Shown here piece by piece: positions 1-61,072 of a stretch of 64,000 nt of DNA. Position numbers and translations under genes: made by a program. Numbering within the stretch: the stretch's first letter is position 1; each line of letters begins with the position of its first letter. Below the pieces are notes generated by a model. That model was not told the DNA's origin. It saw nothing but the letters and a program-made list of their open reading frames with translations, and ran no database searches. The stretch covers positions 310,001 through 374,000 of the forward strand of contig JAIUNR010000001.1 in the NCBI GenBank assembly GCA_020161575.1. The letters run 5' to 3'. Source of the stretch: Pseudomonadota bacterium (GTDB lineage: Bacteria; Pseudomonadota; Alphaproteobacteria; Rhizobiales; Beijerinckiaceae).

Positions 1-1025
1 ACGTAGTCGCGCGTGGCTTCCTGCGCTTTCGAGGCGCCGTCATCGTAGAGCGGGCGGACGCCGGCATAGGCCCAGACGACATCGGCAGGGGCGATGCCCT
101 GCCGGAAATAGCCGCTCGCCGCCTTGCACAGATAGGCGGTCTCCTCCTCGCTGATGCGCACATCGGCGGGATCGCCGGTATAATCGCGGTCTGTGGTGCC
201 GATCAGCGTGAAATGCTGCTCATAGGGAATGGCGAAGATGATCCGCCCGTCGGCATTCTGGAAGATGTAGGCACGGTCATGGTCGAAGAGCTTACGTACG
301 ACGATATGGCTGCCCTGCACCATGCGGATGCGCGCGGGCGTTTTCTGCGCCATGACATTCTCGCTGACGAGCCCCGCCCAGGGGCCGGCGGCATTGATGA
401 GGATGCGCGCTGTTTCCGTTCGGGCGGAGCCCGTGCGCTCGTCCCGGATATCAAGATACCAGCACGGCGTACCGTCTATTGTGCCGCGCCGCGCGCCGGT
501 CACGCGGTTGCGCGTATGGATCGCCGCGCCGCGGCTTGAAGCGTCCATCGCATTCAGAACGACAAGGCGCGCATCCTCGCACCAGAGGTCGGAATATTCG
601 AAGGCGCGGCCAAAACCGGGCTTGAGTGGCTGGCCGGCTTCGTCATCCCTCAGGTCGAGCGTGCCCGTGCCCGGTAGGATCTTGCGCCCGCCCAGATGGT
701 CATAGAGGAAGAGGCCGAATCGCAGCATCCAGGCGGGGCGCATCCCCTTTGCATGCGGCAGCACGAAGCGCAGCGGCCGGATGATATGCGGCGCGATTTT
801 GAGAAGCCTTTCGCGCTCCATCAGCGATTCACGCACGAGCGCGAAGGCGTAGTGCTCGAGATAGCGCAGGCCACCATGGATGAGCTTGGTCGAGGCCGAT
901 GAGGTCGCGCAGGCGAGGTCCGCCTTTTCGTAGAGCGCGACGGAGAGGCCGCGTCCGGCGGCATCGCGGGCGAGGCCGGCACCGTTGATGCCGCCGCCGA
1001 TAATGGCGATGTCATGAATGCTCAT
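1..1025 (-). CDS. glpD: Glycerol-3-phosphate dehydrogenase, N-terminal part (gene runs off the window)
   Basis: Oxidises sn-glycerol 3-phosphate to dihydroxyacetone phosphate at the inner membrane, passing electrons to quinone. The frame opens with ATG at 1025 and is open to base 1, so about 341 residues are visible and the C-terminal part is missing. The N terminus has the FAD dinucleotide motif GGGINGAG (residues 10-17), followed by the family signature TSSASTKLIHGGLRYLE around residues 42-58. Later blocks such as IGTTDRDY and the segment ending YAGVRPLYDD also fit aerobic GlpD. No stop or frameshift was seen in the visible part. It is divergent from the binding-protein gene that starts at 1234. 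Family assignment is firm. Which glycerol genes lie beyond the edge cannot be seen. Confidence 0.93.
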   Translation of the reverse strand, partial: MSIHDIAIIGGGINGAGLARDAAGRGLSVALYEKADLACATSSASTKLIHGGLRYLEHYAFALVRESLMERERLLKIAPHIIRPLRFVLPHAKGMRPAWMLRFGLFLYDHLGGRKILPGTGTLDLRDDEAGQPLKPGFGRAFEYSDLWCEDARLVVLNAMDASSRGAAIHTRNRVTGARRGTIDGTPCWYLDIRDERTGSARTETARILINAAGPWAGLVSENVMAQKTPARIRMVQGSHIVVRKLFDHDRAYIFQNADGRIIFAIPYEQHFTLIGTTDRDYTGDPADVRISEEETAYLCKAASGYFRQGIAPADVVWAYAGVRPLYDDGASKAQEATRDY

Positions 1026-1167
1026 CGTGGCAAGTGCCATTCCATTGTTAACCGGAAGCGAGGAAATTACCTCGATCCTGGACAAGATCGCGACCGAAGC
1101 ATAAGGGCGCGCGGATTAAAATCCACAGCCTTAGCAAGAATGCTGTGATGGATATGGGATGGCATGG

Positions 1168-1183
1168 TAAACATCAAATTAAC
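1168..1183 (+). promoter_or_regulatory. Near-consensus CtrA-type box upstream of the binding-protein/chemoreceptor operon
   Basis: TAAA, seven bases, then TTAAC, against the alphaproteobacterial CtrA consensus TTAA-N7-TTAA. One half is complete and the other has a single mismatch. It lies about 50 bases upstream of the ATG at 1234, inside the divergent 208-base gap after glpD. It is a short motif and could be chance. Confidence 0.28.
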
Positions 1184-1233
1184 CATTCTGCGCCATCGTA
1201 ACGCCCTGATCCCACGGCTCGGATGACGAATAA

Positions 1234-2040
1234 ATGACCAGCCTTTGGTTGAGAATCGCTGCGAGACTTTCGCTTGTCCTCTCCCTTGCATCCGGCATTC
1301 CCGCTAAAGCTTCGGAAATTTCGCTGGTGGGGACAGGAGATGGCCTCGATATTCTGCGCGCGATTGGCGATGCCTTCCAGAAAAAGGCACCAAATACCAA
1401 TATCCAGGTCCCGGCCTCCATTGGTTCGGGCGGAGCGATCGTGGCGGTTGGCGCGGGGCGGGAACGGATCGGGCGCGTTGCCCGCCCGTTGACGCCGGCC
1501 GAGGAAGCCAGCGGGCTGAGCTATCACCCCGTGGCGAAAATCCCGACGGCTTTCTATCTTCATCCGGGGCTGGGTAACCGCAAAATTTCGCTTGGGGATC
1601 TCCGGCGCATCTTTGCCGGCGAGGTGATGGATTGGGCCGAGCTGGGCGGCACTGCGCAGCGTATCCGTGTCGTGCGCCGGGAGGATGCTGATTCGTCCAT
1701 CGCTGTCATGCGCTCGACACTGCCCGGTTTTCAGCAGCTTCGTTTCACGGATCGCGCGAAAATCGCGCTGACCACGCAGGAGGCGCTGCTCTCCGTACGC
1801 GAGAATGCCGGCGCGATCGGCTTCGCTCCCTACTCGGTGATGGAGGCTCAGAAACTCGGGGTGGTCGCTGTCGACGGCGTGCCTCCCGATCACCTGGATT
1901 ATCCCGCCGTCGTGACGCTTGCGCTGATCTACAGAGTGGATCGGCTGGATCCTGAGCTCAAGGATTTCATCGCGTTTTTCGATAGCAAGGCGGCGCATGA
2001 CATTATGCGCAGCTTCGGCGCAAGGCCGGCAAGACCATGA
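1234..2040 (+). CDS. Periplasmic substrate-binding protein, PstS/phosphate-binding-like
   Basis: 268 residues. Residues 1-26 form a signal peptide with a hydrophobic core and an AKA cleavage motif, so the product should be periplasmic. The mature part follows the PstS-like fold: an ISLVGTGDG start, an SGGAI-type ligand loop near residues 62-69, and a late NAGAIGFAPY segment typical of phosphate-binding-like proteins. No permease or ATPase gene is nearby, so it is probably not part of a complete ABC transporter. Its last four bases (ATGA) overlap the start of the chemoreceptor-like gene at 2037, so the two are translationally coupled. The inferred role is to deliver a bound ligand to that membrane sensor. 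The ligand cannot be named from sequence. The start is the first ATG that precedes the signal peptide. Confidence 0.75.
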   Translation: MTSLWLRIAARLSLVLSLASGIPAKASEISLVGTGDGLDILRAIGDAFQKKAPNTNIQVPASIGSGGAIVAVGAGRERIGRVARPLTPAEEASGLSYHPVAKIPTAFYLHPGLGNRKISLGDLRRIFAGEVMDWAELGGTAQRIRVVRREDADSSIAVMRSTLPGFQQLRFTDRAKIALTTQEALLSVRENAGAIGFAPYSVMEAQKLGVVAVDGVPPDHLDYPAVVTLALIYRVDRLDPELKDFIAFFDSKAAHDIMRSFGARPARP

Positions 2041-4115
2041 AGGCTTGGATGACAAGGGAAGGGCGCCTTTTGCCCGTGCATCCGGCGCGCTCGCTTGCTG
2101 TTCGATGGGTGATCTATATCAGCATCACGGTGGGGTTGGGGATCGCGGCGCTGCTGGCGATCACAGTCCGCCAGATGGATTACCAGCTTCAGGCGGAAGG
2201 GGCGAGCGTGATGCATCTCGCCCGTCTCAAGACCGCCGAGCGGATTGACGCCGAGCTGGCGCTGGTCCGTCAGCGCCTCGAGCGGATGGTTGAGACCTAT
2301 GAGGGCTCGCTGGCGAATGTTTCCAACCTGCGCAGCACCTTGCTGGCAATTCAATCACGCAACGATGTTGGGATCGCCGAGGAGATCGGCAAGCGCATCC
2401 TGATGGCGGGCTTCAATGGTGCGCTTGTTCTGGACGAGAAGCTCAACGTGATCGGAGCCGAGCGTACCGGCGCGGAGCTTGTCGCATCCGATGCCGCCCT
2501 GAAGCTTCACGAGCTTCACCATGAACTCAAAGGAGGTATCGCCAAATGGGGCCGCGCGAGCACGGTTGTCAGCCGTTTCGTGGGGCCTCTCGATCCTTCT
2601 TTTGCCGCGGCCTTCATGGCGCCGATCCAGGATGAGTACGGCATCATTCTGGCTGCGCCTGTGCTCAATGATTTCGCCGAGCCTGTCGGGGCGATCATCG
2701 CCTACCGCACTCTGCGCAAGAGCGAGCCCTTGTTGATGGAATTCGCGGCTTCAACACGCTCGATCGTTGTGCTGCAAGGGGTGGATAAACTGGTTTCCCT
2801 CGCTGGCGCGCAGGCGGACATGATTCGTCTTTCAGCGCCGGGGCCTGAAGGCTTGCGGCGTGCGTATGACCACGGCGCTTCCGCGCGCTGCGCTCCTTCC
2901 TTCCCCGGCCTTTCGATCTGTGTCTTGCGCGCGAATGCGGAAATCGAGCGTTTCGGGCAACAGATATCGGTTATCGGACGGGAATATCTGGAGAAGACCA
3001 GAAAAACCCTGTTTGTCACGGGCCTTGCGGTGCTTTTGGTGACTATGGCCATTCTTGCTGTTCTGGCTGTCCGGCTGGTCCGCCCGATCCGTGATATCAC
3101 CGCGTCGGTGGACAAAGTGGCTTCGGGCGAGTGGCGGGTCCATGTCGGGCATACCACGCGCCTCGACGAGATCGGCCGGATCGCCCGTGCTGTTGCGGCG
3201 ATGCAGGTTTCTCTCGCAGAGCGCGATCGCATGCGTCAGGAGATGGTCCGCATCGACGCGATCAACCAGCGCCGCCTGGTGCTCGATGGCGCCGTGACGC
3301 GCTTCGAGGACGGCATGGCCGTTGTCATGAAGGATATCTCGGATACCGTGCACGTGCTTTCCGAGACGAATGATGTGCTCGACAGGGCCGCTCGTCAGGC
3401 GGACATGCAGGCAGAGCGGATCCGCAACACATCCTTGATGACCGCCAAGAACACGAGCGTGGTCTCCCATACGACGAAGGAATTGTCGCGTACGATCCAC
3501 GAGATCAGCGAGCGTTTACGCAATGCCAGCGGGGTGGTGCATATGAGCGAAAGTCATGCGCGTGATGCGGAGGCCCGGATCGGCGAAATCGCGGATGTTA
3601 CGGTCAACGTGGAAGAGGCAATCCTTATTCTTCAGGATACGATGGCGGATCTGAGCCGTCTGGGATTGCGCGCTTCGCTCGATGCGGCGGCCGCTGGCGA
3701 GGCGGGATCGATGTTTGCGCCACTTGCGGGATCGGTCAATCTCTTCGCCGGCAAGGCCAGCGAGGCGACGCGCGTTATTTTCAACGAGATGAGCCGGCTG
3801 GCCAAGGTGGCAGACGGCGCGAGCGGCGCGATAGGCGAGGTCAAGGGCGTGCTTGGCGAGGCCCTGCGGGAAACGCAGGAAATATCGGTGACGTTGGAAG
3901 AGCAGGGCGCGACGACCCGGGAGATCGTTGAAGCGCTCTCCACCTCTTCCTCGGCGCTCGCTTCGCTCACCGAGGCCGTCGACCACCTGCGCGAGAACAT
4001 GTCCAGCGCGCATGACGCTTCGGCGGATTTCGTGACCACCGCTCGCCGCATTGCGGAAGACGCCAAGGCTATCGATCAGTCCTTGCGGTCCTTCCTGCGT
4101 GATGTCGTCGCGTAG
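2037..4115 (+). CDS. Membrane sensor with HAMP domain and degenerate chemoreceptor signalling domain
   Basis: 692 residues. The order is: a short cytoplasmic N terminus, TM1 about 20-43, a large periplasmic region of about 280 residues, TM2 about 324-345, a HAMP domain about 346-400 (LVRPIRDITASVDKVASGEW), then a long helical region. Around residues 541-575 the sequence LRASLDAAAAGEAGSMF aligns by eye with the chemoreceptor hairpin consensus LNAxIEAARAGExGxGF. The highly conserved Arg of EAARAGE is Ala and much of the tip is altered, so ordinary CheA/CheW coupling is doubtful. It overlaps the binding-protein gene by ATGA, suggesting a binding-protein-assisted sensor. No che genes are in the window. 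The architecture is clear; the signal and output are unknown. Confidence 0.72.
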   Translation: MKAWMTREGRLLPVHPARSLAVRWVIYISITVGLGIAALLAITVRQMDYQLQAEGASVMHLARLKTAERIDAELALVRQRLERMVETYEGSLANVSNLRSTLLAIQSRNDVGIAEEIGKRILMAGFNGALVLDEKLNVIGAERTGAELVASDAALKLHELHHELKGGIAKWGRASTVVSRFVGPLDPSFAAAFMAPIQDEYGIILAAPVLNDFAEPVGAIIAYRTLRKSEPLLMEFAASTRSIVVLQGVDKLVSLAGAQADMIRLSAPGPEGLRRAYDHGASARCAPSFPGLSICVLRANAEIERFGQQISVIGREYLEKTRKTLFVTGLAVLLVTMAILAVLAVRLVRPIRDITASVDKVASGEWRVHVGHTTRLDEIGRIARAVAAMQVSLAERDRMRQEMVRIDAINQRRLVLDGAVTRFEDGMAVVMKDISDTVHVLSETNDVLDRAARQADMQAERIRNTSLMTAKNTSVVSHTTKELSRTIHEISERLRNASGVVHMSESHARDAEARIGEIADVTVNVEEAILILQDTMADLSRLGLRASLDAAAAGEAGSMFAPLAGSVNLFAGKASEATRVIFNEMSRLAKVADGASGAIGEVKGVLGEALRETQEISVTLEEQGATTREIVEALSTSSSALASLTEAVDHLRENMSSAHDASADFVTTARRIAEDAKAIDQSLRSFLRDVVA

Positions 4116-46098: not shown

Positions 46099-48228
<2,130 letters not shown>

Positions 48229-48267
48229 ATCACGACGTGTTTTGACGGAACAGCCAAAACCCGCGTT

Positions 48268-49404: not shown

Positions 49405-49406
49405 TC

Positions 49407-50597: not shown

Positions 50598-52465
50598 AGC
50601 GGCGCGCAGGCCGCTTCGAGGAAGGCGAGATCCGCTCCCTTGAGCCCTTTGCCGATCCGCTTAAGCGTTTCGGCATGATAGGCGTCGAGCCAGTTCCGCT
50701 CGTCTTTCGTCAACATGGATTTGACGATGAGGCGGCGGTCGATCGGTGCGAAGGTCAGGGTCTCGAAGCCATACATCTCGCGCTCGCCGCCCTTGATCAC
50801 CCGCTTTTCGACGACAACGAGGTTCTCGATGCGGATGCCGAAATGTCCCTCGCGATAATAGCCGGGTTCGTTCGAAAGCATCATGCCCGGTTGGAGCGGG
50901 GTGGTCCCGAGCTTGGAGATGCGCTGCGGGCCTTCATGCACGGAAAGGAAGGAGCCGACGCCATGGCCGGTGCCATGGTCGAAATCCTGCCCGGCCTGCC
51001 AGAGAAACTGGCGGGCGAAACTGTCGAGCTGGGCGCCGCTCGTGCCCTTTGGGAAGACGGCGAGCGAAATGGCGATCATCCCCTTGAGCACGCGGGTAAA
51101 GGCCTCGCGCATCGCTTTCGTGGTTTTTCCAATGGCGATGGTGCGTGTGATGTCGGTCGTTCCGTCACGGAATTGCGCGCCGGAATCGATGAGGAACAGC
51201 CCTTGTGTGATCTTGCGGTTGGAGGCCTCCGTCACCCGGTAATGGGGCAGGGCGGCATTCGGTCCGGCGGCGGAAATCGACGGGAAAGAGATGTCGGCGA
51301 GATCACCGGCCTCTTTACGGAAATTTTCGAGCGCGATCACCGCGTCGATCTCGGTGAGCTGTCCCTTCGGCGCCTGTGTGTCGAGCCAGTTGAGGAAGCG
51401 CGTCACCGCCACGCCGTCGCGCGAATGCGCCTTGCGTGATCCTTCGATCTCGACATCATTCTTGACCGCCTTCATCAGCGCGATCGGATCGGTGCCGGCA
51501 TCCGCGCGCCCACCAGCTTCCTCGATCACGCCGGTGAGAAGAACCGGCGCGCTTTCTTCATCGAGTCGGATGCGCGCGCCGGAGGCCGCGACCTGCCGGA
51601 GACGCGACGAAAGCTCCGCCCGCCCGTCGCCGGGCGCGGTGGCCGGCGTGACGATCTCGACGCTTCGGGCAAGGCGCCGCGCGAGATCAGGCGCGAGGCG
51701 CTTGGCATCGACAAAGAGAACCGGCTTGCCTTCGCGCGGCACGAGCGCGAATGCACGCAGGATCGGCAGATGCGGCACGTCGCCGGCGCGGAAATTGAAC
51801 AGCCAGTTGACCGACGGGCACTCGGAAACAACCAGCGAATCGAGCTTCAGCTCCGCCATCTTCTCCTGAAGGCGGCGGATCTTCGCTTCCGCGCTCTCGC
51901 CGGCATGGATCTCGGCATGATCGACGATATCGCTCGCGGGGGCGGCGGGGCGATCCTCCCAGATCGGATCGAAAGGATCGCTTTTGAGCGCCACGAGGGC
52001 AAGCGCGGCATCCGCGGCGGCACTCTCGAAGCGCTTCAGTCCGCGGGCGGTGAACAGCGCGGGGTCATAGGCGATGCGCGCGCCCGGCTTTCCCTCGCGC
52101 CTCAGCCAATCCTCCGGCGATGTCTCGGCCAGGGGCACGACGGAAACGACGGCCGGGTCAGTCTCGGCCTTGCCCTGCACGGTGTAGCGCCCATCGACGA
52201 ACAGTGCCGCGCGATCCTTGAGGACGATCGCGAAGCCGGCGGAACCCGTGAAGCCGGTGAGCCAGGCGAGGCGGTCCTCGGAAGGGGGGAGATACTCGCC
52301 CTGGAAGATGTCCGCGCGCGGCAGCAACAGACCTTCCGCGCCCAACGCTTGGAGCGCGGAGCGAAGGGATTTGAGGCGGGCAGCGGAAAGATCGGGGCGG
52401 GAGCGGGTGGAAAAAGTCTGGAATTGGGCTTTGGGCAAGGCAAACCTCGTGATTTGGCCCAGCAT
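50594..52465 (-). CDS. Xaa-Pro aminopeptidase, M24 family (aminopeptidase P, large form)
   Basis: 623 residues, the large three-domain form. Two creatinase-like N-terminal domains (ALGAEGLLLPRADIFQGEYLP; then SLVVSECPSVNWLFNFRAGDVPH) precede the M24 catalytic domain. Metal ligands are in order: LIDSGAQFRDGTTDITRT (two Asp), GTGHGVGSFLSVHEGP (His), SNEPGYYREGHFGIRIEN (two Glu). It releases N-terminal residues next to proline. ATG 52465 is preferred; an in-frame TTG eight codons upstream is the alternative. First gene of the three-gene minus-strand operon with the efflux and oxidase genes. Confidence 0.92.
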   Translation of the reverse strand: MLGQITRFALPKAQFQTFSTRSRPDLSAARLKSLRSALQALGAEGLLLPRADIFQGEYLPPSEDRLAWLTGFTGSAGFAIVLKDRAALFVDGRYTVQGKAETDPAVVSVVPLAETSPEDWLRREGKPGARIAYDPALFTARGLKRFESAAADAALALVALKSDPFDPIWEDRPAAPASDIVDHAEIHAGESAEAKIRRLQEKMAELKLDSLVVSECPSVNWLFNFRAGDVPHLPILRAFALVPREGKPVLFVDAKRLAPDLARRLARSVEIVTPATAPGDGRAELSSRLRQVAASGARIRLDEESAPVLLTGVIEEAGGRADAGTDPIALMKAVKNDVEIEGSRKAHSRDGVAVTRFLNWLDTQAPKGQLTEIDAVIALENFRKEAGDLADISFPSISAAGPNAALPHYRVTEASNRKITQGLFLIDSGAQFRDGTTDITRTIAIGKTTKAMREAFTRVLKGMIAISLAVFPKGTSGAQLDSFARQFLWQAGQDFDHGTGHGVGSFLSVHEGPQRISKLGTTPLQPGMMLSNEPGYYREGHFGIRIENLVVVEKRVIKGGEREMYGFETLTFAPIDRRLIVKSMLTKDERNWLDAYHAETLKRIGKGLKGADLAFLEAACAPL

Positions 52466-52601
52466 AGCGATTGTATGCAGCCCTCTCAAGAAAAGAGCGG
52501 ATGCGCGGATTTTTACCTGTCGCCCGATTTTGTGGCGGTGCCGATTAGATCATGGCCAAATTATGCAAAAATAAAGCAATAGTGAACAGGAAATAGCCAA
52601 T

Positions 52602-52680
52602 CTATGCGTTTAATGCATAGCTATGCTGCGCCGCAACATCTTGCTGCGCTGCAGCGAAGGTCTATCTTCTTGGTCCAAGA
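52602..52680 (+). promoter_or_regulatory. Two palindromes upstream of the small-protein genes
   Basis: CTATGC-N7-GCATAG at 52602-52620, directly followed by a third CTATGC (52621-52626), and TCTTGG-T-CCAAGA at 52668-52680. Both lie in the 239-base gap between the aminopeptidase gene and the 74-residue gene at 52729, where operators would be expected. No matching regulator is adjacent. The remainder of the gap holds nothing recognisable. Confidence 0.4.
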
Positions 52681-52728
52681 TATGCGGCACCGACATGGTG
52701 TCGCCTGCCAAACCGGAAGGAGAAAACC

Positions 52729-52953
52729 ATGGCTGCATTGACATTCTCGGATGCGCTGCTCCCGCTCGCCGGAACGGATACCACACAGGCCGCCGCGCCG
52801 CGCAAAGCTGGTATCGCCGCACGCTTCATGGCGGCGGTGATGGAGAGCCGCCGGCGCAATGCCGAACGCGAAATCGCCCGGATCGAGGCCGCCTATGGCA
52901 TCCAGATCCGCGAGCGCGTGGCGCAGTCGCTCGCACGCGACCTGCCTTTCTGA
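52729..52953 (+). CDS. Small basic hypothetical protein
   Basis: 74 residues, not recognised. ATG 52729 has a GGAGAAAA site upstream. N-terminal third is small-residue rich (FSDALLPLAGTDTTQAAAPR), the rest is a charged amphipathic helix (VMESRRRNAEREIARIEAAYGIQ) and ends ARDLPF. No membrane segment or signal peptide. It is followed 12 bases later by the 41-residue gene, and both share one terminator, so they form a two-gene small-protein operon. Codon use and GC content are like the host. Small proteins of this look in Rhizobiales are often stress or growth-phase regulated; that is only an analogy. Confidence 0.6.
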   Translation: MAALTFSDALLPLAGTDTTQAAAPRKAGIAARFMAAVMESRRRNAEREIARIEAAYGIQIRERVAQSLARDLPF

Positions 52954-52965
52954 CAGGAGATCAGC

Positions 52966-53091
52966 ATGATGATCGCAGTTTTCGTTCGCCTCGCCCACGT
53001 CCTCGGCCTTCTTGCCGAGGTGGTGAGGGAGGGTAACGCCCTTCACCGCCGCATGAACCGGGTTCATCCCGGTCTGCTCGGCAGCGAGTGA
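52966..53091 (+). CDS. Very small hypothetical protein (41 residues)
   Basis: 41 residues: MMIAVFVRLAHVLGLLAEVV, then REGNALHRRMNRVHPGLLGSE. ATG 52966 has CAGGAGA six to twelve bases upstream; a second ATG follows at once. The N-terminal half is a hydrophobic helix long enough to touch a membrane, the second half is basic. It sits 12 bases after the 74-residue gene and 10 bases before a strong terminator, which supports a real, transcribed gene. Function unknown. Confidence 0.5.
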   Translation: MMIAVFVRLAHVLGLLAEVVREGNALHRRMNRVHPGLLGSE

Positions 53092-53101
53092 CACCGACCT
53101 G

Positions 53102-53124
53102 AACCCCGCTTCGGCGGGGTTTTT
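53102..53124 (+). terminator. Rho-independent terminator of the small-protein operon
   Basis: AACCCCGC (53102-53109), TTCG tetraloop, GCGGGGTT (53114-53121), then T to 53124. Very stable. It probably works in both directions, since prmA ends on the other strand at 53137. Confidence 0.85.
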
Positions 53125-53136
53125 CGTCTCCGGCTT

Positions 53137-54135
53137 TCAGGTCGCGCGCCGTATCGGTTTTGCGCCGCCCCGCCTGAGGATGAGGCTCACCCAGCCTTCG
53201 AGCTGTCTTTTCGCGACGAGGTGAAAACCGAACGCGCGATACTTGGCGAGTACGCCCGGCACATCGCCGACCAGAAGGCCGGACAGGATCAGCTCGCCGC
53301 CGGGCGCGGTAGCGCGCGCGATTTCCGGCGCGAGCCCCTTCAGCGGTTTGGCGAGGATATTCGCGAAGACGAGATCGTAGAAGCGCGTGGCCATCAGCTG
53401 CGGATGCCGCAAGCCCGCCGCGACCACGGGGCGTACGAGCGGCGCGACGCCGTTGAGCCGCGCATTCTCGCGCGCGATGCGAACCGAATCCGGGTCCAGC
53501 TCGCCGGCATGGACGAAATCCTTGATCGCCATGGCTGTCGCGAAGGCGAGGATGCCCGTTCCCGACCCGATATCGACCACATTGACCGGGCGGCGGCGCT
53601 TGAGCAGCGCATCGAGATGCAACAGGCAGCCGCGCGTCGTGCCGTGATGGCCGGTGCCGAAGGCGAGCGCGGCCTCGATCTCGATATTGTGCCGATTGAG
53701 TTTCAGCGTATCGCGCGAATGCGCGCCATGCACGGTGAAGCGCCCGGCATCCACGGGTACCATGCCTTCGAGCGCGGCGGCGATCCAGTCACGCGCCTCG
53801 ACGGCTTCGAAAACAAGCGCGGCCGCGGCTTCGTCGCCCGCGATGCCGGCCACGAGATCGCGGATCGCGGCTTCATCCGGCGCCTCGCCGAAATAGAGTT
53901 CGCACAGCCACGGGGTTTCGAGATCGGGCATCAGGGTACCCATCGCGCCGTGGCGGAGATGATCCTGCCTGCTGGGGCGCGGCACGGAAGTGTGGATCGC
54001 GTTCTCCTCGGGCATCTCGAAGGCCGAGGCGGCCAGATCCTCCGGCTCGAACAGATCCGAGAGCTGGTCGGCGATCAGCTTGGCGGTGTCCTCGTCGGTC
54101 ACGAGGCGGGCGAGGGTGGTTGAGGCGGGGTTCAT
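53137..54135 (-). CDS. prmA: Ribosomal protein L11 methyltransferase
   Basis: 332 residues. Trimethylates L11 residues using SAM. The N-terminal substrate domain is less conserved; the methyltransferase domain has LAFGTGHHGTTRGCLLHL near 163-180, NVVDIGSGTGILAFATAM (SAM loop), GELDPDSVRIARENARLNG, and DLVFANILAKPLKGLAPEI. The usual FGTGxHxTT signature is intact. ATG 54135 overlaps the stop of a short upstream frame as ATGA, which supports this start. It is not linked to other ribosome genes here. Confidence 0.93.
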   Translation of the reverse strand: MNPASTTLARLVTDEDTAKLIADQLSDLFEPEDLAASAFEMPEENAIHTSVPRPSRQDHLRHGAMGTLMPDLETPWLCELYFGEAPDEAAIRDLVAGIAGDEAAAALVFEAVEARDWIAAALEGMVPVDAGRFTVHGAHSRDTLKLNRHNIEIEAALAFGTGHHGTTRGCLLHLDALLKRRRPVNVVDIGSGTGILAFATAMAIKDFVHAGELDPDSVRIARENARLNGVAPLVRPVVAAGLRHPQLMATRFYDLVFANILAKPLKGLAPEIARATAPGGELILSGLLVGDVPGVLAKYRAFGFHLVAKRQLEGWVSLILRRGGAKPIRRAT

Positions 54136-54278
54136 GCCCAGTGCTTCAAGCCCAAAGTCAAGGCGATTGCCAGCCCGATTGTGAGGATCAGATAAATTTC
54201 CCAAAGCGCCAGCCGAGCATGGCGAAGATGACGAAGAAAGCGCGGCGGGTCGGGCGGGAGAGAAGGTTTGGAAGCCAT
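54132..54278 (-). CDS. Small membrane protein (48 residues) upstream of prmA
   Basis: 48 residues: basic N-terminal half (MASKPSLPPDPPRFLRHLRH) and one hydrophobic helix (ALWEIYLILTIGLAIALTLG), ending LKHWA. ATG 54278 has AGGAG eight bases upstream, an excellent site. Its TGA overlaps the prmA ATG as ATGA, so prmA translation is probably coupled to it. The protein is unrecognised, and too short for many gene finders. Topology would place the basic part in the cytoplasm. Confidence 0.55.
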   Translation of the reverse strand: MASKPSLPPDPPRFLRHLRHARLALWEIYLILTIGLAIALTLGLKHWA

Positions 54279-54620
54279 CGAGACGCTCCTGATTCGATTG
54301 GGCGTCTTTGAAATTGCATATTCCTGATGTTCTCCCAACTAGGCCCCTAGTTCGGGTGACTAGTATGTTCCTTTAAAAATCAATAGGTTATTCCGAATCC
54401 CCGTGTCGATGCTTGTCGCATTCGTGTTCGATCTAAACTCTCCTTTATTTACAATGGCATACGTCATCTTATCCACAAAGGGGCGTGGTGGATTTTCTCT
54501 ATCCATTTGAAATATCTGCAAGAAAAAATATTTGCTCGCCGCCGTCAATGGTGACACCAAGGGAATGGGGAACGTCATGCCCGGCCTTGGGCCGGGCATC
54601 CACGACTTCCGGGGTATTAG
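54279..54620. other. AT-richer stretch without a supported gene
   Basis: 342 bases between the 48-residue gene and the 61-residue gene. The part 54340-54530 is clearly AT-richer than the surroundings. One minus-strand frame (54360-54578, 72 codons) spans it and would encode a sequence with FLQIFQMDRENPPRPF, unlike any family I recognise; it starts inside a repeat element and may be a remnant of a lost gene. Nothing else is seen beyond the family 2 repeat at 54573-54606. Confidence 0.35.
54573..54606. repeat. Palindromic repeat element, family 2, copy 1
   Basis: 34 bases with core ATGCCCGGCCTTGGGCCGGGCAT, itself a palindrome, flanked by CGTC and CACGAC. A second copy in the opposite orientation lies at 54921-54954, and a diverged one at 11188-11216. 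Confidence 0.75.
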
Positions 54621-54806
54621 TTATCGCCGATCCCGCTCGGGAATATTGATCTGCTCGCAACGAAGCTGATCGATCAGGGATTCCCGGCGCTTGCGGTTCC
54701 CGTGCGTCATGTTCTTGTGACGCGGACAACAGCCATTTGCTTTGCGCGGTTTGCACAGAAGGCACCCGGCGCGTGCTGATTTAGGGCGCTTGCGTTTGAA
54801 ATGCAT
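54621..54806 (-). CDS. Small Cys-rich basic protein (61 residues), conserved in alphaproteobacteria
   Basis: 61 residues. MHFKRKRPKSARAGCLLCKP is the hallmark of a conserved but uncharacterised alphaproteobacterial small protein; two more Cys follow in NGCCPRHKN, so four Cys plus His could hold a zinc ion. The rest is strongly basic and helical (GNRKRRESLIDQLRCEQINI), which suggests binding to nucleic acid; that is inference. ATG 54806 is the family start. The gene stands alone, enclosed by two family 2 repeats in opposite orientation. Confidence 0.62.
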   Translation of the reverse strand: MHFKRKRPKSARAGCLLCKPRKANGCCPRHKNMTHGNRKRRESLIDQLRCEQINIPERDRR

Positions 54807-54920
54807 GTTTGTCTCCGGACATATCCGGTGCGCCCCTATGGCGCACGGGCATGTTCGGAGACTGGAGAGGAACGAATCTACCCATGCCCAGAATGTAGCG
54901 CGGAGGATTATCGCGGCCCA

Positions 54921-54954
54921 GTCGTGGATGGCCGGGCCAAGCCCGGCCATGACG
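54921..54954. repeat. Palindromic repeat element, family 2, copy 2
   Basis: GTCGTGGATGGCCGGGCC, then AAGCCCGGCCATGACG. It is the reverse complement of copy 1 (54573-54606) apart from swapped G/C in the two arms. It ends 18 bases before the duplicated uvrD tail. Confidence 0.75.
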
Positions 54955-54967
54955 CGAGGCGTTGCCC

Positions 54968-55183
54968 TCACCCCGCCTGCACAAAACTATCCAGCACCAT
55001 CTCCCTTCCGGCCTTGTCGAAATCGACGGTGAGCTTGTTCCCGTCCACTTCCGCCACCGAGCCGGGGCCGAACTTGACGTGGAACACGCGCGCGCCAGCC
55101 TTGAATTTCGAGGGGGTGCCGGTGGAGGAAGCGAGAACACGCCCCTCGATCAGCTTTGCTTGCCCTGGTGTAGATCCGGTCAT
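54968..55183 (-). CDS. Orphan copy of the UvrD C-terminal (DUF3553-like) domain
   Basis: 71 residues. From residue 10 it repeats the last 60 or so residues of UvrD with few changes (LIEGRVLASSTG, then KFKAGARVFHVKFGPGSVAEVDG and FDKAGREMVLDSFVQAG). The first nine residues (MTGSTPGQA) are unique. Its ATG overlaps the LicD gene stop as ATGA (55180-55183), so it could be translated with that gene. It arose by duplication of the uvrD 3' end. Whether the free domain does anything is unknown; it may simply be a scar. Confidence 0.55.
   Translation of the reverse strand: MTGSTPGQAKLIEGRVLASSTGTPSKFKAGARVFHVKFGPGSVAEVDGNKLTVDFDKAGREMVLDSFVQAG
54973..55154. repeat. Direct repeat of the uvrD 3' end, distal copy
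   Basis: 182 bases matching 56297-56478 in the same orientation with four mismatches that I could count. The two copies bracket the LicD gene. This copy is the one without the rest of uvrD. Confidence 0.92.
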
Positions 55184-56238
55184 TTCCAGGAGGGTTGCGG
55201 TGCGCGCCCCTCCTTAAAGCCATGGTTGAGAAAATGTTGAACGGGATTGACGCCTGCGGCGGCAACGTCCGGGTTGGCTTCGAGGTACCATTCCCGGTCC
55301 ACGATCGACTCGATGATATGTCGGAGGGCCTCTTCGGAGAGGGGCGCGCCACGGGGCCGTCCCCAGCGGACAACGCGGGAGTTGATGACAGATCGCATCA
55401 CTTGCTCGGTCAGGGCGGTAAGCATTTTATGGGAGGCAGAGGCTTTCTCGTGAGAGGCGATAGCTTCCTCACGCGATGCCGCAGCTTCCGCGCGGCAGGC
55501 TGCGGCTTCCTCACGCGATGCGGCAGCTTCCTCACGCGATGCGGCAGCTTCCGCGCGGCAGGCCGCAGCTTCCGCTTCGGCTATTGCGGAACGATTCCTG
55601 AGTTGGGAGACTTCTTCCTGCAGCTGGAGGATGATTGCATCGCGAGCAGCGATCCTCTCCCTTGTGTTAAAATAGGTGATGGAAATTTTATGGTTTTCAA
55701 TCGTACAGTTGTAATCACTAAATTTTTTCAGAGGCGTTCGCCAACGCTTACCGTAAGCGGCCTCACAGCAGGTGGTCGGCTGTGCCGGAATGGAAACTTG
55801 ATTTCCATTGATTTCTGTCTGCGTGGTTGGAAATATGTAGTGGCGAGGGATGTATAAATCGTCTTCCCTTCGTTGAGCGGCAGAAATAGTCCAGCGAAGG
55901 ATAATTTCGTCTGTCTCCTCGCTTTCTTCCCAGAAGTAGAAATCAATTAGAATTTTTGCTCCACCTATTTCACGGCCAGCTTGGAGGAAATAGGGTGTTG
56001 TATTGGAAAAAACTTCAAGGTCAATTTCAAAACCATAATTAACTAATCGATTAATTATATTTTCTCTATCGTGGATGGAGGCGATAAAGTCAATATCATC
56101 ATCATACTCGATCAGTTTTCCGTTGCGGTGCAGGCCAAGTAAGGTTCCGAACATGGGTATAATATTGATCCCCTGCATTTTTGAAATAATTTCATCAAAT
56201 GCTTGCTGTGACAAAGCGGAAGGAAAGCCAAGTTTCAT
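55180..56238 (-). CDS. LicD-family protein with heptad-repeat linker and a C-terminal WYL...NPDV motif domain
   Basis: 352 residues. Residues 1-190 form a LicD/nucleotidyltransferase-like domain: MFGTLLGLHRNGKLIEYDDDIDF carries the metal-binding Asp run (46-50). In known members LicD adds phosphocholine or related groups to surface sugars. Residues 220-262 are tandem heptads of the form (A/E)EAAA(S/C)R, a predicted coiled coil. The C terminus has REWYLEANPDVAAAGVNP and HGFKEGRAPQP, a motif seen in polysaccharide-related proteins. The 5' two-thirds is AT-rich (41 A/T of 60 at 56041-56100), the 3' third GC-rich, so the gene is a composite. It lies between two copies of the uvrD tail, evidence of insertion. 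Likely role: modification of surface glycans; substrate unknown. Confidence 0.75.
   Translation of the reverse strand: MKLGFPSALSQQAFDEIISKMQGINIIPMFGTLLGLHRNGKLIEYDDDIDFIASIHDRENIINRLVNYGFEIDLEVFSNTTPYFLQAGREIGGAKILIDFYFWEESEETDEIILRWTISAAQRREDDLYIPRHYIFPTTQTEINGNQVSIPAQPTTCCEAAYGKRWRTPLKKFSDYNCTIENHKISITYFNTRERIAARDAIILQLQEEVSQLRNRSAIAEAEAAACRAEAAASREEAAASREEAAACRAEAAASREEAIASHEKASASHKMLTALTEQVMRSVINSRVVRWGRPRGAPLSEEALRHIIESIVDREWYLEANPDVAAAGVNPVQHFLNHGFKEGRAPQPSWK
55451..55580. repeat. 21-base tandem repeats inside the LicD gene
   Basis: About six units of 21 bases, alternating GCTTCCTCACGCGATGCGGC and GCTTCCGCGCGGCAGGC-type versions, each encoding one heptad. Copy number could change by slippage, altering coiled-coil length without breaking the frame. 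Confidence 0.8.
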
Positions 56239-56291
56239 GTTTTAACCTGTTGCCTGAGTTATGTAAATTTTAGTATTATCTTGCTGTCACC

Positions 56292-58793
56292 TTAGGCCGC
56301 CTGCACAAAACTATCCAGCACCATCTTCCTTCCGGCCTTGTCGAAATCGACGGTGAGCTTGTTCCCGTCCACTTCCGCCACCGAGCCGGGGCCGAACTTG
56401 ACGTGGAACACGCGCGCGCCAGCCTTGAATTTCGAGGGGCTGCCGGTTGAGGAAGCGAGAACGCGCCCCTCGATCAGCGCGGGAGACTTCCCGAAAGATT
56501 GGCCCCCACGCTGTCCCGCCCCTTGCGTCGCGGCGGAAGGGCGGAACCCTGACGCGGCGGCGGCCTGCGCGCGTTGCCAGCCCGGCGTCGCATAGGTGGA
56601 ATTCTGGAAGGGTTGCACCTTGTCGAAGCGCGAGCCGCCGCCTCCGAAATTCCCGCCCCCATAACCACCGCCGTAAATCTGGCGCTGCTCGCGGCCATAG
56701 GTGCCCTGGCCCTCCATCACCTCGACATGCTCGGCGGGCAGCTCATCGACAAAGCGCGAGGGAATGGCGGCATTCCACATGCCGTGGATGCGCCGGTTGG
56801 TGGCGAAATAGAGCCGCGCGCGCTGCTTGGCGCGCGTCAATCCGACATAGGCGAGGCGGCGCTCCTCCTCCAGCCCGGCCTTGCCCTGCTCGTCGAGCGC
56901 GCGCTGATGTGGAAAGACGCCTTCCTCCCAGCCCGGCAGGAAGACGGTTTCGAATTCGAGGCCCTTGGCGGCATGGAGCGTCATGATCGAGACGCGATCG
57001 TCGCTTTCCGACGAAGCGGCATCCATCACCAGCCCGACATGTTCGAGGAACCCGGCGAGGTTTTCGAACTCCTCCATGGAGCGCACGAGTTCCTTGAGGT
57101 TTTCGAGTCGGCCCGCGGCATCCGCCGAGCGATCTTTCTTCCACATCTCGGTATAGCCGCTCTCTTCCAGAACGGTTTCCGCAAGTTCGTGATGCGGCAT
57201 GGTCTCGATCAGCGAGGACCAGCGGGCGAATGCCTCCATCAGCTCGCGCAGGGTCGAGCGCTGCTTCGGCTTCAGCTCCTCGGTTTCCACCAGCACCCGT
57301 GCCGCCTGCATCAGCGGCACCCGCGCCTCGCGCGCATAGGCGTGCAGGCTCGCGAGCACCGCATCGCCGAGGCCGCGCTTGGGCGTATTGAAAATGCGCT
57401 CGAAGGCGAGATCGTTCGAGATATTGGCGACGCATTTGAGATAGGCGAGGGCATCGCGGATTTCCGCACGCTCGTAGAAACGCGGGCCGCCGATCACGCG
57501 GTAGGGAATCGCGTTGGTGATGAAGCGCTCCTCGAATTCGCGCATCTGGAACGAGGCGCGCACGAGGATCGCCATCTCGTTCAGCCGGTGCCCCTTGTGC
57601 TGGAGTGCCTCGATCTCGTCCGCGATCTGCCGGGCTTCCTCCTCGCTGTCCCAGGCGCAGGCGACAGCGACTTTCTCGCCCATCTCGCCTTCCGTGAAGA
57701 GGGTCTTGCCGAGCCGGCCTTCATTGTTGGCGATGAGCTTCGATGCCGCGCCGAGAATATGCCCGGTCGAACGGTAATTGCGCTCAAGCCGGATCACCAC
57801 CGCGCCGGGAAAATCCTTCTCGAAGCGCAGGATGTTATCCACCTCCGCCCCGCGCCAACCATAGATGGATTGGTCGTCATCGCCCACGCAGCAGATGTTG
57901 CGCCGCCCCTGCGCCACGAGGCGCAGCCAGAGATACTGCGCGGTGTTCGTGTCCTGATATTCGTCGACGAGGATATAGCGGAAACGCTCCTGATACTGCG
58001 CAAGGATATCCGGGTTGTCACGGAAGAGGCGGATCGTCTCGACCAGCAGATCGCCGAAATCGACCGCGTTCAGGGTTTTGAGGCGCTCCTGATAGAGTGC
58101 GTAGAGTTCGCCGCCGCGGCCGGCGAAGGAGATCGCCTCGCCCGCGGGCACCTTGTTCGGCGGCAGGGCGCGGTTTTTCCAGCCATCGATGATGGAAGCG
58201 AGCACGCGCGCCGGCCAGCGCTTGTCGTCGATATTCTCGGCCTGGATGATCTGCTTCAACAACCGGATCTGGTCATCGGTGTCGAGAATGGTGAAATCGC
58301 TTTTCAGATCTACCGCCTCGGCATGGCGGCGCAGCAGCTTGGTGCCGATCGAGTGGAAGGTGCCCAACCACGGCATCCCTTCCGCCACCGCGCCGACGAG
58401 ATGCGCGATACGCTCCTTCATCTCGCGCGCGGCCTTGTTGGTGAAGGTCATGGCGAGGATTTCGTTGGGCCGTGCCCGTCCGGTCGCGATGAGATGGGCG
58501 ATGCGCGAGGTGAGCACCTTGGTCTTGCCGGTGCCGGCACCGGCCAGTACGAGGACCGGTCCGTCCAGCGTCTCGACCGCGCGGCCCTGCTCGGGGTTCA
58601 GCCCGCTGAGATAGGTTGCGGCAGGCCGTGCGGCGGCCATGGCGCGCGCGGCGATGCCGCCGCCGGGGGCGGGGTTCTTCATGGCGGGCCGGGGCTCTTC
58701 CCAGCCATCGAGCGAAAACGGATCCGACAAGGTGACGACTTCTCTGGCCAATAAAAGAGCGAGATGGGGCTCAGCCTCATCTCCTGCAAGCAT
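56292..58793 (-). CDS. uvrD: DNA helicase UvrD/PcrA type (SF1A) with DUF3553-like tail
   Basis: 833 residues. ATP-dependent 3'-5' helicase of excision and mismatch repair. Walker A LAGAGTGKT at 83-91, MTFTNKAAREMKERI (Ia), GTFHSIGTKLLRRH, VDEYQDTN (II), VGDDDQSIYGWRGAE (III), LERNYRST (IV), VSIMTLHAAKGLEFETVFLPG (V) and LAYVGLTRAKQRARL (VI) are all intact. The C-terminal 60 residues match DUF3553, linked through a Gly-rich stretch (YGGGYGGGNFGGGG). The first 60 residues are variable, and ATG 58682 is an alternative start. Its own 3' end is the undisturbed reading copy of the duplicated tail. Confidence 0.95.
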   Translation of the reverse strand: MLAGDEAEPHLALLLAREVVTLSDPFSLDGWEEPRPAMKNPAPGGGIAARAMAAARPAATYLSGLNPEQGRAVETLDGPVLVLAGAGTGKTKVLTSRIAHLIATGRARPNEILAMTFTNKAAREMKERIAHLVGAVAEGMPWLGTFHSIGTKLLRRHAEAVDLKSDFTILDTDDQIRLLKQIIQAENIDDKRWPARVLASIIDGWKNRALPPNKVPAGEAISFAGRGGELYALYQERLKTLNAVDFGDLLVETIRLFRDNPDILAQYQERFRYILVDEYQDTNTAQYLWLRLVAQGRRNICCVGDDDQSIYGWRGAEVDNILRFEKDFPGAVVIRLERNYRSTGHILGAASKLIANNEGRLGKTLFTEGEMGEKVAVACAWDSEEEARQIADEIEALQHKGHRLNEMAILVRASFQMREFEERFITNAIPYRVIGGPRFYERAEIRDALAYLKCVANISNDLAFERIFNTPKRGLGDAVLASLHAYAREARVPLMQAARVLVETEELKPKQRSTLRELMEAFARWSSLIETMPHHELAETVLEESGYTEMWKKDRSADAAGRLENLKELVRSMEEFENLAGFLEHVGLVMDAASSESDDRVSIMTLHAAKGLEFETVFLPGWEEGVFPHQRALDEQGKAGLEEERRLAYVGLTRAKQRARLYFATNRRIHGMWNAAIPSRFVDELPAEHVEVMEGQGTYGREQRQIYGGGYGGGNFGGGGSRFDKVQPFQNSTYATPGWQRAQAAAASGFRPSAATQGAGQRGGQSFGKSPALIEGRVLASSTGSPSKFKAGARVFHVKFGPGSVAEVDGNKLTVDFDKAGRKMVLDSFVQAA
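56297..56478. repeat. Direct repeat of the uvrD 3' end, proximal copy (in uvrD)
   Basis: Partner of 54973-55154, offset by 1,324 bases. It encodes the natural C terminus of UvrD. The copies agree from CCGCCTGCACAAAACTATCC through to GATCAGC, beyond which they differ. Confidence 0.92.
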
Positions 58794-58936
58794 TCTGGCT
58801 GATTCGCACCCCTTTCACCCGGATTGATCGGGGACATAAGGGAGAAGAGGCGTTTGTTCTTCAATTGTTCTAGATCGTCTTGGGATTTTGCTCAACCCCT
58901 TCCGGCGCGTTTTCCGCATTGCGGTGAAAATCCGGC

Positions 58937-58965
58937 TTGAAGCAGGCGTGACGGCGTTACAGATT
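58937..58965 (+). promoter_or_regulatory. Candidate promoter of the DUF1993 gene
   Basis: TTGAAG (58937-58942) and CAGATT (58960-58965) are 17 bases apart, 28 bases before the ATG at 58994. The 200-base divergent gap to uvrD holds nothing else identified. Confidence 0.42.
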
Positions 58966-58993
58966 TCGCACATCTGTCCTTTCGGAGAATCCC

Positions 58994-59500
58994 ATGTCGT
59001 CCATGAACCAGATCGGCCTTTCGACCTTGAACCAGACGCTTGCCGCGCTTGACCGCGTCCTCGGCAAGCTCGCCGCCCATTGCGAGGCGAAAAAGATCGA
59101 CGAGGCGATTTTCGTTTCCGCCCGCCTTTTCCCGGATATGTTCGCGCTTGCCCGGCAGGTGCAGATCGCGTGCGATTTCGCCAAGGGCGCGGCTGCCCGG
59201 CTTTCCGGCGCGGAAGTCCCCGCCTGGGCGGATGACGAGAAGAGCATCGCGGAACTGCGCGCCCGCATCGCGAAGACACGCAATTATGTGGATGGGATTC
59301 CCGCCTCCGCCTATGCCGGTTCCGACGACCGCGTGATCAAGATCAAGCTTGGCCGCAATGCGCCGGAAACGGAGATGGCGGGCAAGGATTATCTCGCGAA
59401 AGTGGTGTTGCCGAATTTCTATTTCCACGCGGCGATGGCCTATGCGATCTTGCGCAACGGCGGCGTGGAACTCGGCAAGAACGATTTCCTCGACCGCTGA
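58994..59500 (+). CDS. DUF1993 family protein
   Basis: 168 residues, all-helical by composition. It follows the DUF1993 pattern: LNQTLAALDRVLGKLAAHCE, RLFPDMFALARQVQIACDFAKGAAARLSG in parts, PAWADDEKSIAELRARIAKT, and PNFYFHAAMAYAILRNGGVELGKNDFL. The layout resembles DinB-like four-helix bundles, but no function is known. ATG 58994 follows a CGGAGA site. It is followed 79 bases (to the ATG at 59580) or 91 bases (to that at 59592) later by the oxidase gene on the same strand. Nothing unusual. Confidence 0.85.
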   Translation: MSSMNQIGLSTLNQTLAALDRVLGKLAAHCEAKKIDEAIFVSARLFPDMFALARQVQIACDFAKGAAARLSGAEVPAWADDEKSIAELRARIAKTRNYVDGIPASAYAGSDDRVIKIKLGRNAPETEMAGKDYLAKVVLPNFYFHAAMAYAILRNGGVELGKNDFLDR

Positions 59501-59591
59501 ACAGCCTGATCTGACTTTTCCCTGCTCCATCCTGTGCGCGGCCTGTCGGGGCGGCGCGCCGGGTGGAGCCTATCCGCCTATGGAGCACGAG

Positions 59592-61001
59592 ATGAACGAG
59601 AGCCTTCAGCGACCGAGCCCCGAAACCATGGCGGTTGTCGTCGCCGGGCTTCAGCGGCAATTCGGCAATCGCTGCACGCTGAGCGAGGCGACTCGCCGCC
59701 AGCACGCGCACACCACGACATGGCTCGAGAACCAGCCGCCGGATATCGTCGTGTTTCCCGAGACGACCGAAGAGGTGCAGGCGATCGTGCGGCTTTGCGC
59801 CGCGCATCGCGTGCCGGTCATCCCGTTCGGTTCGGGTTCCTCGCTCGAAGGGCAGCTCAACGCCCCGCTCGGCGGCGTTTCGGTGGATCTGTCCGGCATG
59901 AAGAAGATTCTCGCCGTCAATGCCGAGGACCTCGATTGTGTGGTCGAGCCAGGCGTCACGCGCAAGGAACTCAATGAGTATCTGCGCTCCTACGGGCTGT
60001 TCTTTCCCATCGATCCGGGGGCGGATGCGACTTTGGGCGGCATGGTCGCGACGCGCGCCTCCGGCACCAATGCTGTCCGCTATGGCACGATGAAGGACAA
60101 CGTGATCGCGCTCGATGTGGTGACGGCGGAGGGCGAGATCGTCACCACCGCGCGCCGCGCGCGCAAGACCAGCGCCGGCTACGATCTCACCCGGCTTTTC
60201 GTCGGCGCTGAGGGAACGCTGGGGATCGTCACCCGGATAACGTTGAAGCTTTCCGGCCTGCCGGAAGCGGTTTCCGCCGGGTCATGCCCGTTTCCCTCCA
60301 TCCGCGCGGCGGCGGATGCGGTGATCATGACGATCCAGACCGGAATTCCGGTGGCGCGCATCGAGCTGCTGGACGAGGCGCAGGTCAAGGCGGTCAACGT
60401 CTATTCCAAATTGTCGCTGCCCGAGATGCCGCTGCTGCTGGTGGAGTTCCACGGCACGGAAGCGGGCGTCGCGGAACAGGCGGCGCGTTTCGGGGAGATC
60501 GCCGCTGAATTTTCGGGTGGGCCCTTCGAATGGGCCGTAAAACCGGAGGATCGCACCCGGCTCTGGCAGGCACGGCATGATGGATATTGGGCAGCCCTGG
60601 GGTTGCGGCCTGGTACGCGCGGGCTTTCGACCGATACCTGCGTGCCGATCTCCCGTCTGGCGGATTGCATCGAGGAGACCAAGACGGATATCGTCGAGAA
60701 CGGGTTCGTCGCGCCGATTGTCGGCCATGTCGGAGATGGTAATTTCCATTGCCTCCTGCTCGTGGATACCGAGAGCGAGGCAGAGCGAAAAGGTGCCGAG
60801 GCCTTCCTTCATCGCCTTGTCGAACGCGCGCACCGCATGGACGGGACCTGCACGGGCGAACATGGAATTGGGCAGGGCAAGCAGAAATACCTTGAACCGG
60901 AGCTGGGGCGGCCCGCGCTTGACGCGATGCGCGCGATCAAGGCCGCGCTTGACCCCAAGGGCATCATGAACCCTGGAAAGATCGTCGCGCATAAGCCGTG
61001 A
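59592..61001 (+). CDS. FAD-linked oxidase, D-lactate/glycolate dehydrogenase type
   Basis: 469 residues. An FAD-binding-4 domain (about 45-230: PETTEEVQAIVRLCAAH, PVIPFGSGSSLEGQ, LGGVSVDLSGM, FVGAEGTLGIVTRITLKL) and the C-terminal FAD-oxidase domain with GHVGDGNFHCLLLV and the DGTCTGEHGIGQGKQKYL signature. This fits cytochrome-linked D-lactate dehydrogenase (Dld2-like) or GlcD; without glcE/glcF neighbours, D-lactate dehydrogenase is favoured. No signal peptide or membrane segment. ATG 59592 is chosen; an in-frame ATG at 59580 is equally plausible. Confidence 0.88.
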   Translation: MNESLQRPSPETMAVVVAGLQRQFGNRCTLSEATRRQHAHTTTWLENQPPDIVVFPETTEEVQAIVRLCAAHRVPVIPFGSGSSLEGQLNAPLGGVSVDLSGMKKILAVNAEDLDCVVEPGVTRKELNEYLRSYGLFFPIDPGADATLGGMVATRASGTNAVRYGTMKDNVIALDVVTAEGEIVTTARRARKTSAGYDLTRLFVGAEGTLGIVTRITLKLSGLPEAVSAGSCPFPSIRAAADAVIMTIQTGIPVARIELLDEAQVKAVNVYSKLSLPEMPLLLVEFHGTEAGVAEQAARFGEIAAEFSGGPFEWAVKPEDRTRLWQARHDGYWAALGLRPGTRGLSTDTCVPISRLADCIEETKTDIVENGFVAPIVGHVGDGNFHCLLLVDTESEAERKGAEAFLHRLVERAHRMDGTCTGEHGIGQGKQKYLEPELGRPALDAMRAIKAALDPKGIMNPGKIVAHKP

Positions 61002-61072
61002 TCCGGTGCCACTTTGGCGCTAGGATGGAAAGCGCCGGGGGGTGATTCCGGCGCGGATTCGGGGTTCGACGA

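Follow-up and report, generated by a model that had tools for sequence, protein, structure and literature searches.

The 64,000-nucleotide (nt) stretch of contig JAIUNR010000001.1 analyzed here (positions 310,001-374,000; hereafter the window) comes from a Rhabdaerophilum genome, which we designate G000, and carries a LicD-type gene between the intact helicase gene uvrD and a second copy of the uvrD 3' end. The locus is probably a stacked double allele of the variable site between uvrD and prmA, formed by recombination anchored in the uvrD 3' end, and the most plausible interpretation of its displaced tail is a scar left by an insertion.

The two tail copies are direct repeats on the minus strand at 56297-56478 and 54973-55154, 182 nt long and 97.8% identical with no gaps. 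Their coordinates agree exactly with those of an initial annotation of this DNA, as does the count of four mismatches, which lie at 55003, 55116, 55124 and 55139. This is the longest direct repeat listed for positions 50000-60000, and identity at such a level across 182 nt excludes a chance origin. Read along the minus strand, the order is uvrD, a 53-nt spacer, the LicD-type open reading frame (ORF), a 25-nt junction, the orphan tail, a small Cys-rich ORF and prmA. The uvrD gene (58793-56292) is complete, encoding 833 amino acids with both helicase domains (UvrD-helicase, 2.8e-92; UvrD_C, 2.6e-69), and was matched in 100 of 100 relatives searched; the repeat copy at 56297-56478 is its 3' end. 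Behind the spacer (56239-56291) lies the cargo ORF of 352 amino acids (56238-55180), and the junction (55155-55179), presumably a non-homologous joint, separates the cargo stop from the copy at 54973-55154, which is identified as the displaced uvrD tail by the repeat comparison and by the congeners. As initially annotated, this orphan keeps an open frame: an ORF of 71 amino acids (55183-54968, minus strand) spans it, and its ATG overlaps the LicD stop (ATGA). The ORF matches DUF3553 and the PcrA/UvrD tudor model, both under the curated cut-offs.

A whole-genome DNA search gave these two tails and no third. In 384 kb of G000 (the window plus sixteen 20-kb stretches) the event is the sole one of its kind, and all other direct repeats listed there fall within single ORFs; the ORFs with internal repeats are what we take to be an ABC-F type protein, an RTX/cadherin-like protein and the LicD coiled coil. 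The absence of a tRNA target and of an integrase, both remarked on initially, was borne out: ARAGORN predicts no tRNA in 48000-64000, and no integrase lies between the repeats, where the LicD-type ORF fills the space (the search for one did not extend to the remainder of the genome). Between 53000 and 59500 every Rfam match falls under its gathering score.

Within the genus, sequence comparison makes the tail-cargo-tail structure of G000 look derived. The sample comprises 17 Rhabdaerophilum genomes including G000, one genome per species (G010 is taken as Rhabdaerophilum calidifontis and G002 as Rhabdaerophilum sp. SD176), and a second uvrD tail and a LicD match occur in G000 only. Of the 16 congeners, 15 have a single full uvrD tail and no LicD, with prmA downstream and co-oriented; the contig of the remaining one (G011) stops there, which makes its gap unreadable. 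The comparison across relatives that the initial annotation had proposed thus gave insertion-free congeners with single tails and, in other species, different cargo between two tails, rather than the same tandem tails in all relatives with no variation in cargo.

The two G000 tails are 98% alike in alignment and both are distant from all 15 aligned congeners. Polarized by eye against these congeners, the derived state is in the orphan at two of the four positions, in uvrD at one, and undecided at one. One of the two orphan changes replaces Lys, the residue that all 16 congeners have there, by Glu. The 20 nt that follow the intact uvrD look like the native uvrD spacer of another Rhabdaerophilum: they match the same place behind uvrD of G010 at 16 of 20 positions with no shift, which none of 1000 letter shuffles attained across the genomes surveyed. 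The recipient side also appears to be partly recognizable: alignment of the orphan tail with the uvrD end of G009 extends to 3 nt beyond the stop, that with the uvrD end of G001 runs as far as the stop, and some 650 nt later, in the direction of prmA, the sequences can be aligned again.

The idea of a recurring insertion site, raised in the initial annotation, holds, as orphan uvrD tails with different cargo occur in five other genomes of the family. A search with the tail protein in 397 family genomes gave at least one match in 375 and two or more in eight, and of the latter G000, G158, G399 and G434 carry the extra tails a short way downstream of uvrD and on its strand. The additional tails of G044 and G292 lie on separate contigs and were not counted, and the second match of G023 is a second, divergent uvrD. 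G258 was rejected, its second contig having the tail (96% alike) joined directly to the DNA that follows an extra 1 kb. The two contigs of this single metagenome-assembled genome (C372 and C63; L138, L139) show the uvrD tail with and without about 1 kb of extra DNA between flanks that are 96% and 99% identical, possibly a strain polymorphism of the uvrD-downstream site.

In a more sensitive survey of 112 genomes, the last 250 nt of each uvrD were compared with the DNA that lies downstream of it in the same genome, over at most 6 kb (under 5 kb in seven genomes). Orphan tails were found in six (G000, G158, G320, G355, G399 and G434), all on the uvrD strand and 0.5-2 kb downstream. The survey thereby added G355, taken as Bosea psychrotolerans, G320 (67 nt, 76% identity) and a weak 33-nt case in G008; matches of only 15-48 nt, seen on both strands in some twenty further genomes, were left out of the count. 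Seven of the 112 genomes had been included beforehand, as multi-tail matches or as the index, and four of the six positives are among them. In 78 comparable loci out of 80 further named ones, G355 and G008 were recovered again along with one weak 34-nt match, and nothing else. Across 676 kb surveyed, 19 direct-repeat pairs measure 50 nt or more, and in seven of them the first copy is the uvrD tail, which makes up about 4% of the sequence; these seven come from six genomes, among them the index and three others picked for their tails. The remaining 12 include one pair formed by the two G158 orphans, one in the LicD coiled coil of G000, eight that, read singly, look like intra-ORF repeats, tandem paralogs or intergenic repeats, and two (G110, G141) near the coordinates of a paralog pair in G031. 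The sole inverted pair does not involve the uvrD tail.

The cargo, of which only the named genes were examined at these other loci (in the window, the ORFs between uvrD and prmA), varies from genome to genome. G158 has two orphan tails in the order uvrD, HTH protein, tail, Uma2 nuclease, tail; we take the HTH protein to resemble HigA antitoxins (Pfam HTH_3, E = 0.0047, under its cut-off). The cargo is hicA-hicB in G434 and a TetR regulator with a membrane protein in G399 and G355, and in G320 hicAB, TetR and a membrane protein stand ahead of a tail remnant. LicD is the only glycan-type gene among the identified cargos. The others are toxin-antitoxin, regulatory, enzyme and nuclease genes, and on these identities we reject the hotspot for surface-glycan genes that had been suggested initially.

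A control search of these 397 genomes with the C-terminus of recN gave a match in 382 and two matches in five. In one of the five, G216 (contig C27, L243:1149-3982), an Mrr type IV restriction nuclease (PF04471, 5.9e-33; PADLOC mREase_IV, 5e-77) comes after recN and is in turn followed by an orphan recN tail of 207 nt with 88% identity, which begins 9 nt past the Mrr stop and has an open frame of 67 amino acids. The double matches of G215, G262 and G372 are on separate contigs, and that of G144 includes a weak match in another ORF. The same protein protocol gave G158, G399 and G434 besides G000 for uvrD (with G044 and G292 split across contigs) and one genome for recN. Because of the scar in G216, the one same-contig case among the 397 genomes, uvrD is rejected as the only such site. 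It is a recurrent site; with two genes tested, uvrD and recN, an enrichment of uvrD over recN is not established.

In G399 and G434 the aligned sequences indicate that a "uvrD-A" allele stands before the tail of a "uvrD-B" allele, and both halves resemble the natural alleles of other species. Positions -220..1280 of G399 (uvrD end, TetR, membrane protein) form one 1519-nt alignment (76%) with G394, in which TetR and the membrane protein directly follow uvrD with no orphan tail, and positions 1301..2151 (orphan tail, hicAB) align over a single 864-nt stretch (79%) with G320, namely its intact uvrD end and hicAB. Similarly, positions 755..2063 of G434 (orphan tail, GNAT, SDR) align over a single 1311-nt stretch (87%) with G283, where the uvrD end is intact and is aligned together with its neighbours; the uvrD end and hicAB of G434 match G404 as two separate blocks, both at 90%, and its hicAB matches that of G027 at 92%. 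The eight orphan tails measured, seven of uvrD and one of recN, are all direct repeats. In six of them the homology between main and orphan copy stops no more than 5 nt from the end of the stop codon, as would result from the meeting of two different downstream alleles at that point. Among the uvrD tails the start varies (-64, -96, -130, -181, -186, -220 and -250 from the stop), which incoming pieces with random 5' ends would produce; the two best preserved tails are those of G000 (-186) and G399 (-250).

Allele stacking at the index locus would have begun with a close relative, unsampled here, that carried uvrD, a short spacer and the LicD-type gene. A piece of its DNA, starting within the last ~190 nt of uvrD and ending just past the LicD stop, would have entered the lineage by homologous recombination within the common uvrD tail. 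Its free far end would have been joined without homology, either through a circle and a single crossover or by recombination of one end and illegitimate joining of the other. The intact uvrD would then carry the donor end and spacer, and the recipient tail with its old neighbours would have been pushed downstream as the orphan. Ordinary recombination would suffice for this, so that no integrase is needed; the donor, the vehicle, and the passage through a circle or a one-ended recombination are the parts that we infer.

Processes of both sorts, homology-facilitated illegitimate recombination and single-crossover integration of circularized linear DNA, are reported for E. coli in the available part of PMC3240628. 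Like the one-sided events described there, the scars studied here have one homologous side and another joined without homology, and the single crossover of a circularized fragment yields exactly this gene order; those, however, were laboratory events with chosen constructs, whereas ours are inferred from natural scars. Merodiploids arising by transformation (PMC3784515) were weighed as a further way to obtain duplications with an insertion, and the explanation makes no use of them. The usual account of hotspots that lack mobile elements is recombination in the core genes on either side, inferred statistically. Oliveira et al. 2017 (PMC5635113), in the portion available, propose double homologous recombination at both flanks from within-species data, whereas the one-sided displaced tail suggests one crossover plus a non-homologous or circular joint, and our comparisons are between species. 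We regard the process as one of a known kind, with an unusually legible scar and a compactness that it leaves unexplained. Displaced tails are a physical record of single events, giving the anchor gene, the start of the piece, the prior allele and the order of arrival; scans for orphan 3' tails would yield countable, datable events and would test a route of toxin-antitoxin and restriction genes via core-gene ends. Among the titles and opening lines of abstracts listed for uvrD together with integration hotspot, toxin-antitoxin, hicAB or Rhabdaerophilum, nothing on this site was found, which is no proof of its absence from print.

Several observations weigh against allele stacking. The donor allele, uvrD-licD, was not found in the genomes sampled, which include one strain of this species, and either of the two G000 tails could be the recipient's. 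The Bosea matches are interspecific (76-92%) and show alleles rather than the actual donors. Orphan copies are partly eroded in G158, G320, G355 and G434, so that some start points are lower bounds and the spread among them is in part due to erosion. G399 and G355, collinear over 1747 nt at 90%, probably share one event. The rate without the pre-picked genomes is low, at 2 of 105 (G355, and G320 with its 67 nt at 76%) plus the weak G008. In addition, the cargo stop is at most 70 nt from the orphan tail in eight of eight tails: it lies 25, 49, 70, 22, 27, 22 and 9 nt before the tail in seven and 15 nt inside the remnant in G320. This spacing is tighter than random fragment ends predict, for which we have no good explanation.

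Insertion with long target duplication, in which both copies are made in situ from one target, is an established alternative (Nobusato et al. 2000, as cited in the available parts of PMC3031569, PMC1643837 and PMC4978471). It has the same geometry, a gene between long, variable direct repeats of target sequence that is single-copy in relatives, and it would account for cargo lying compactly against the second tail and for two G000 tails that are 98% alike. The hicAB, Uma2 and Mrr genes of the other loci are moreover selfish or restriction-type cargo, although LicD is not. We nevertheless consider this explanation rather unlikely: duplication in situ does not predict the two-allele resemblance in G399 and G434, where the copies appear to belong to two downstream alleles, and the repeat ends at the stop codon in six of eight tails; in G000 the copies would fit either origin. 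Prophage e14 and phage 21 integrate in icd, restoring the 3' end of the gene and leaving the old 3' end behind, and what remains of an integrase-dependent element that attached at the uvrD 3' end and rebuilt it on entry would likewise be an intact gene, cargo and a leftover 3' end in direct order. An integrated element was the initial interpretation of the locus. Its insertion scar, derived structure and reuse of the site are upheld, but a site-specific element is set aside because the start points differ, -186 versus -250 in the two best preserved uvrD cases, and no recombinase is present in the insert. There is no complete element and no fixed crossover core, unlike in icd, the same scar is found behind recN, and the 12 pattern matches in viral contigs yielded no confirmed uvrD tail. 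Matches resembling the uvrD tail occur in two unannotated fecal phage records (41-45% identity; E = 3e-11 and 8e-6), and the tail matches eight plasmid records, in seven of which no feature is annotated at the match, so that the annotation does not tell a whole uvrD from a tail. All in all, we find such a remnant highly improbable.

A local tandem duplication of the uvrD end, by slippage or unequal crossover, followed by arrival of the LicD gene between the copies, would agree with the distribution of the four differences over both copies, which implies that the tails coexisted for a while, and with G008, where a 33-nt piece of the genome's own uvrD end lies 220 nt behind uvrD with no recognized cargo gene between. 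It requires two separate events, though, and no long tandem tail free of cargo was seen in the 112 surveyed genomes or the 78 further loci, which leaves it with little probability. The open frame in ATGA overlap, and the likewise open recN orphan of G216, with its 67 amino acids, could also mean that the orphan was retained as useful, as a free 71-amino acid UvrD tail domain that is translationally coupled to LicD and made as a separate small protein. Such a role would cover the retention of the tail and not its origin; the other orphans (G158, G320, G355, G434) are eroded, and the G000 orphan has the derived Glu in place of the Lys of all 16 congeners. We think it very unlikely.

A different, unlikely reading would make gene 3' ends integrase-free cassette ports. 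A cargo with about 200 nt of host tail would circularize tail-to-tail, re-enter the same gene in relatives and build arrays of the form uvrD-c1-tail-c2-tail, as in G158, the tail acting like the att site of an integron with RecA only. If so, the spacing of at most 70 nt in all eight tails and the recN/Mrr scar would be signs of a unit rather than of random ends, and the arrangement would be mobile while encoding no mobility function.

The cargo of the index locus lies, as the initial annotation had it, between the intact uvrD and the orphan tail. It matches Pfam LicD (PF04991) above the curated cut-off (29.2 bits against 22.6; E = 1.3e-6), over residues 22-70 only. The ORF consists of this LicD segment, an Ala/Glu-rich coiled coil and a C-terminal NPDV-type motif. 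The coiled coil is encoded by 21-nt repeats at 55431-55577, and the NPDV-type C-terminus resembles parts of large proteins in many family members. The cargo had been called AT-rich, which is true of its 5' half (G+C content 0.42-0.50) but not of its 3' half (0.59-0.62; uvrD, 0.62-0.68). LicD had no match in the other 16 genomes of the genus, and cargo residues 1-193 were matched in none of 384 other genomes of the class. Matches to the cargo occur in 48 of 148 other family genomes and, among the matches listed, involve the C-terminal part only. No relative of the cargo was confirmed among 43 pattern-matched stretches of genome contigs or five of viral contigs, and none was found in phage records; three plasmid records match by the C-terminal motif only. 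PADLOC gave no match for the LicD-type cargo.

The interval between uvrD and prmA is a site of turnover also where orphan tails are absent, and its variability, compared here between species rather than within one, sustains the idea of a hotspot, though not one for glycan genes. In the window its far flank is the conserved prmA (54123-53137, minus strand; PrmA, 2e-47). The gap contains hicAB in eight of 16 congeners (G011 not being readable) and in 16 of 31 Bosea, and elsewhere varying sets of GNAT, glyoxalase, HxlR, SDR, TetR/membrane protein, HTH, Uma2 and small Cys-rich ORFs. Across the whole set, hicAB distances correlate with those of prmA (r = 0.68, n = 25; reached in none of 2000 permutations), as they do within Bosea (r = 0.47, n = 15, p = 0.014); Rhabdaerophilum shows no such correlation (r = 0.10, n = 8, p = 0.26). 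We read this pattern as long residence with replacement. In the genus of Methylocystis rosea, a hicB match is found on the opposite strand in G238, G271 and G284. The small Cys-rich ORF that follows the orphan tail in the window (54806-54621, minus strand; 61 amino acids) has similar ORFs behind uvrD in five of 31 Bosea (G237, G249, G277, G380 and G418) and may be another exchangeable cargo.

Two further repeats were noted behind uvrD. G028 (L057) has a 60-nt direct repeat (97%) at 8-67 and 264-323 past the uvrD stop, the gene end not being included. In the window, GC-rich REP-type palindromes (GGCCGGGC...GCCCGGCC) are visible by eye in the uvrD-prmA gap at 54928-54950 and about 54575-54600, one of them ~18 nt past the stop of the orphan tail.

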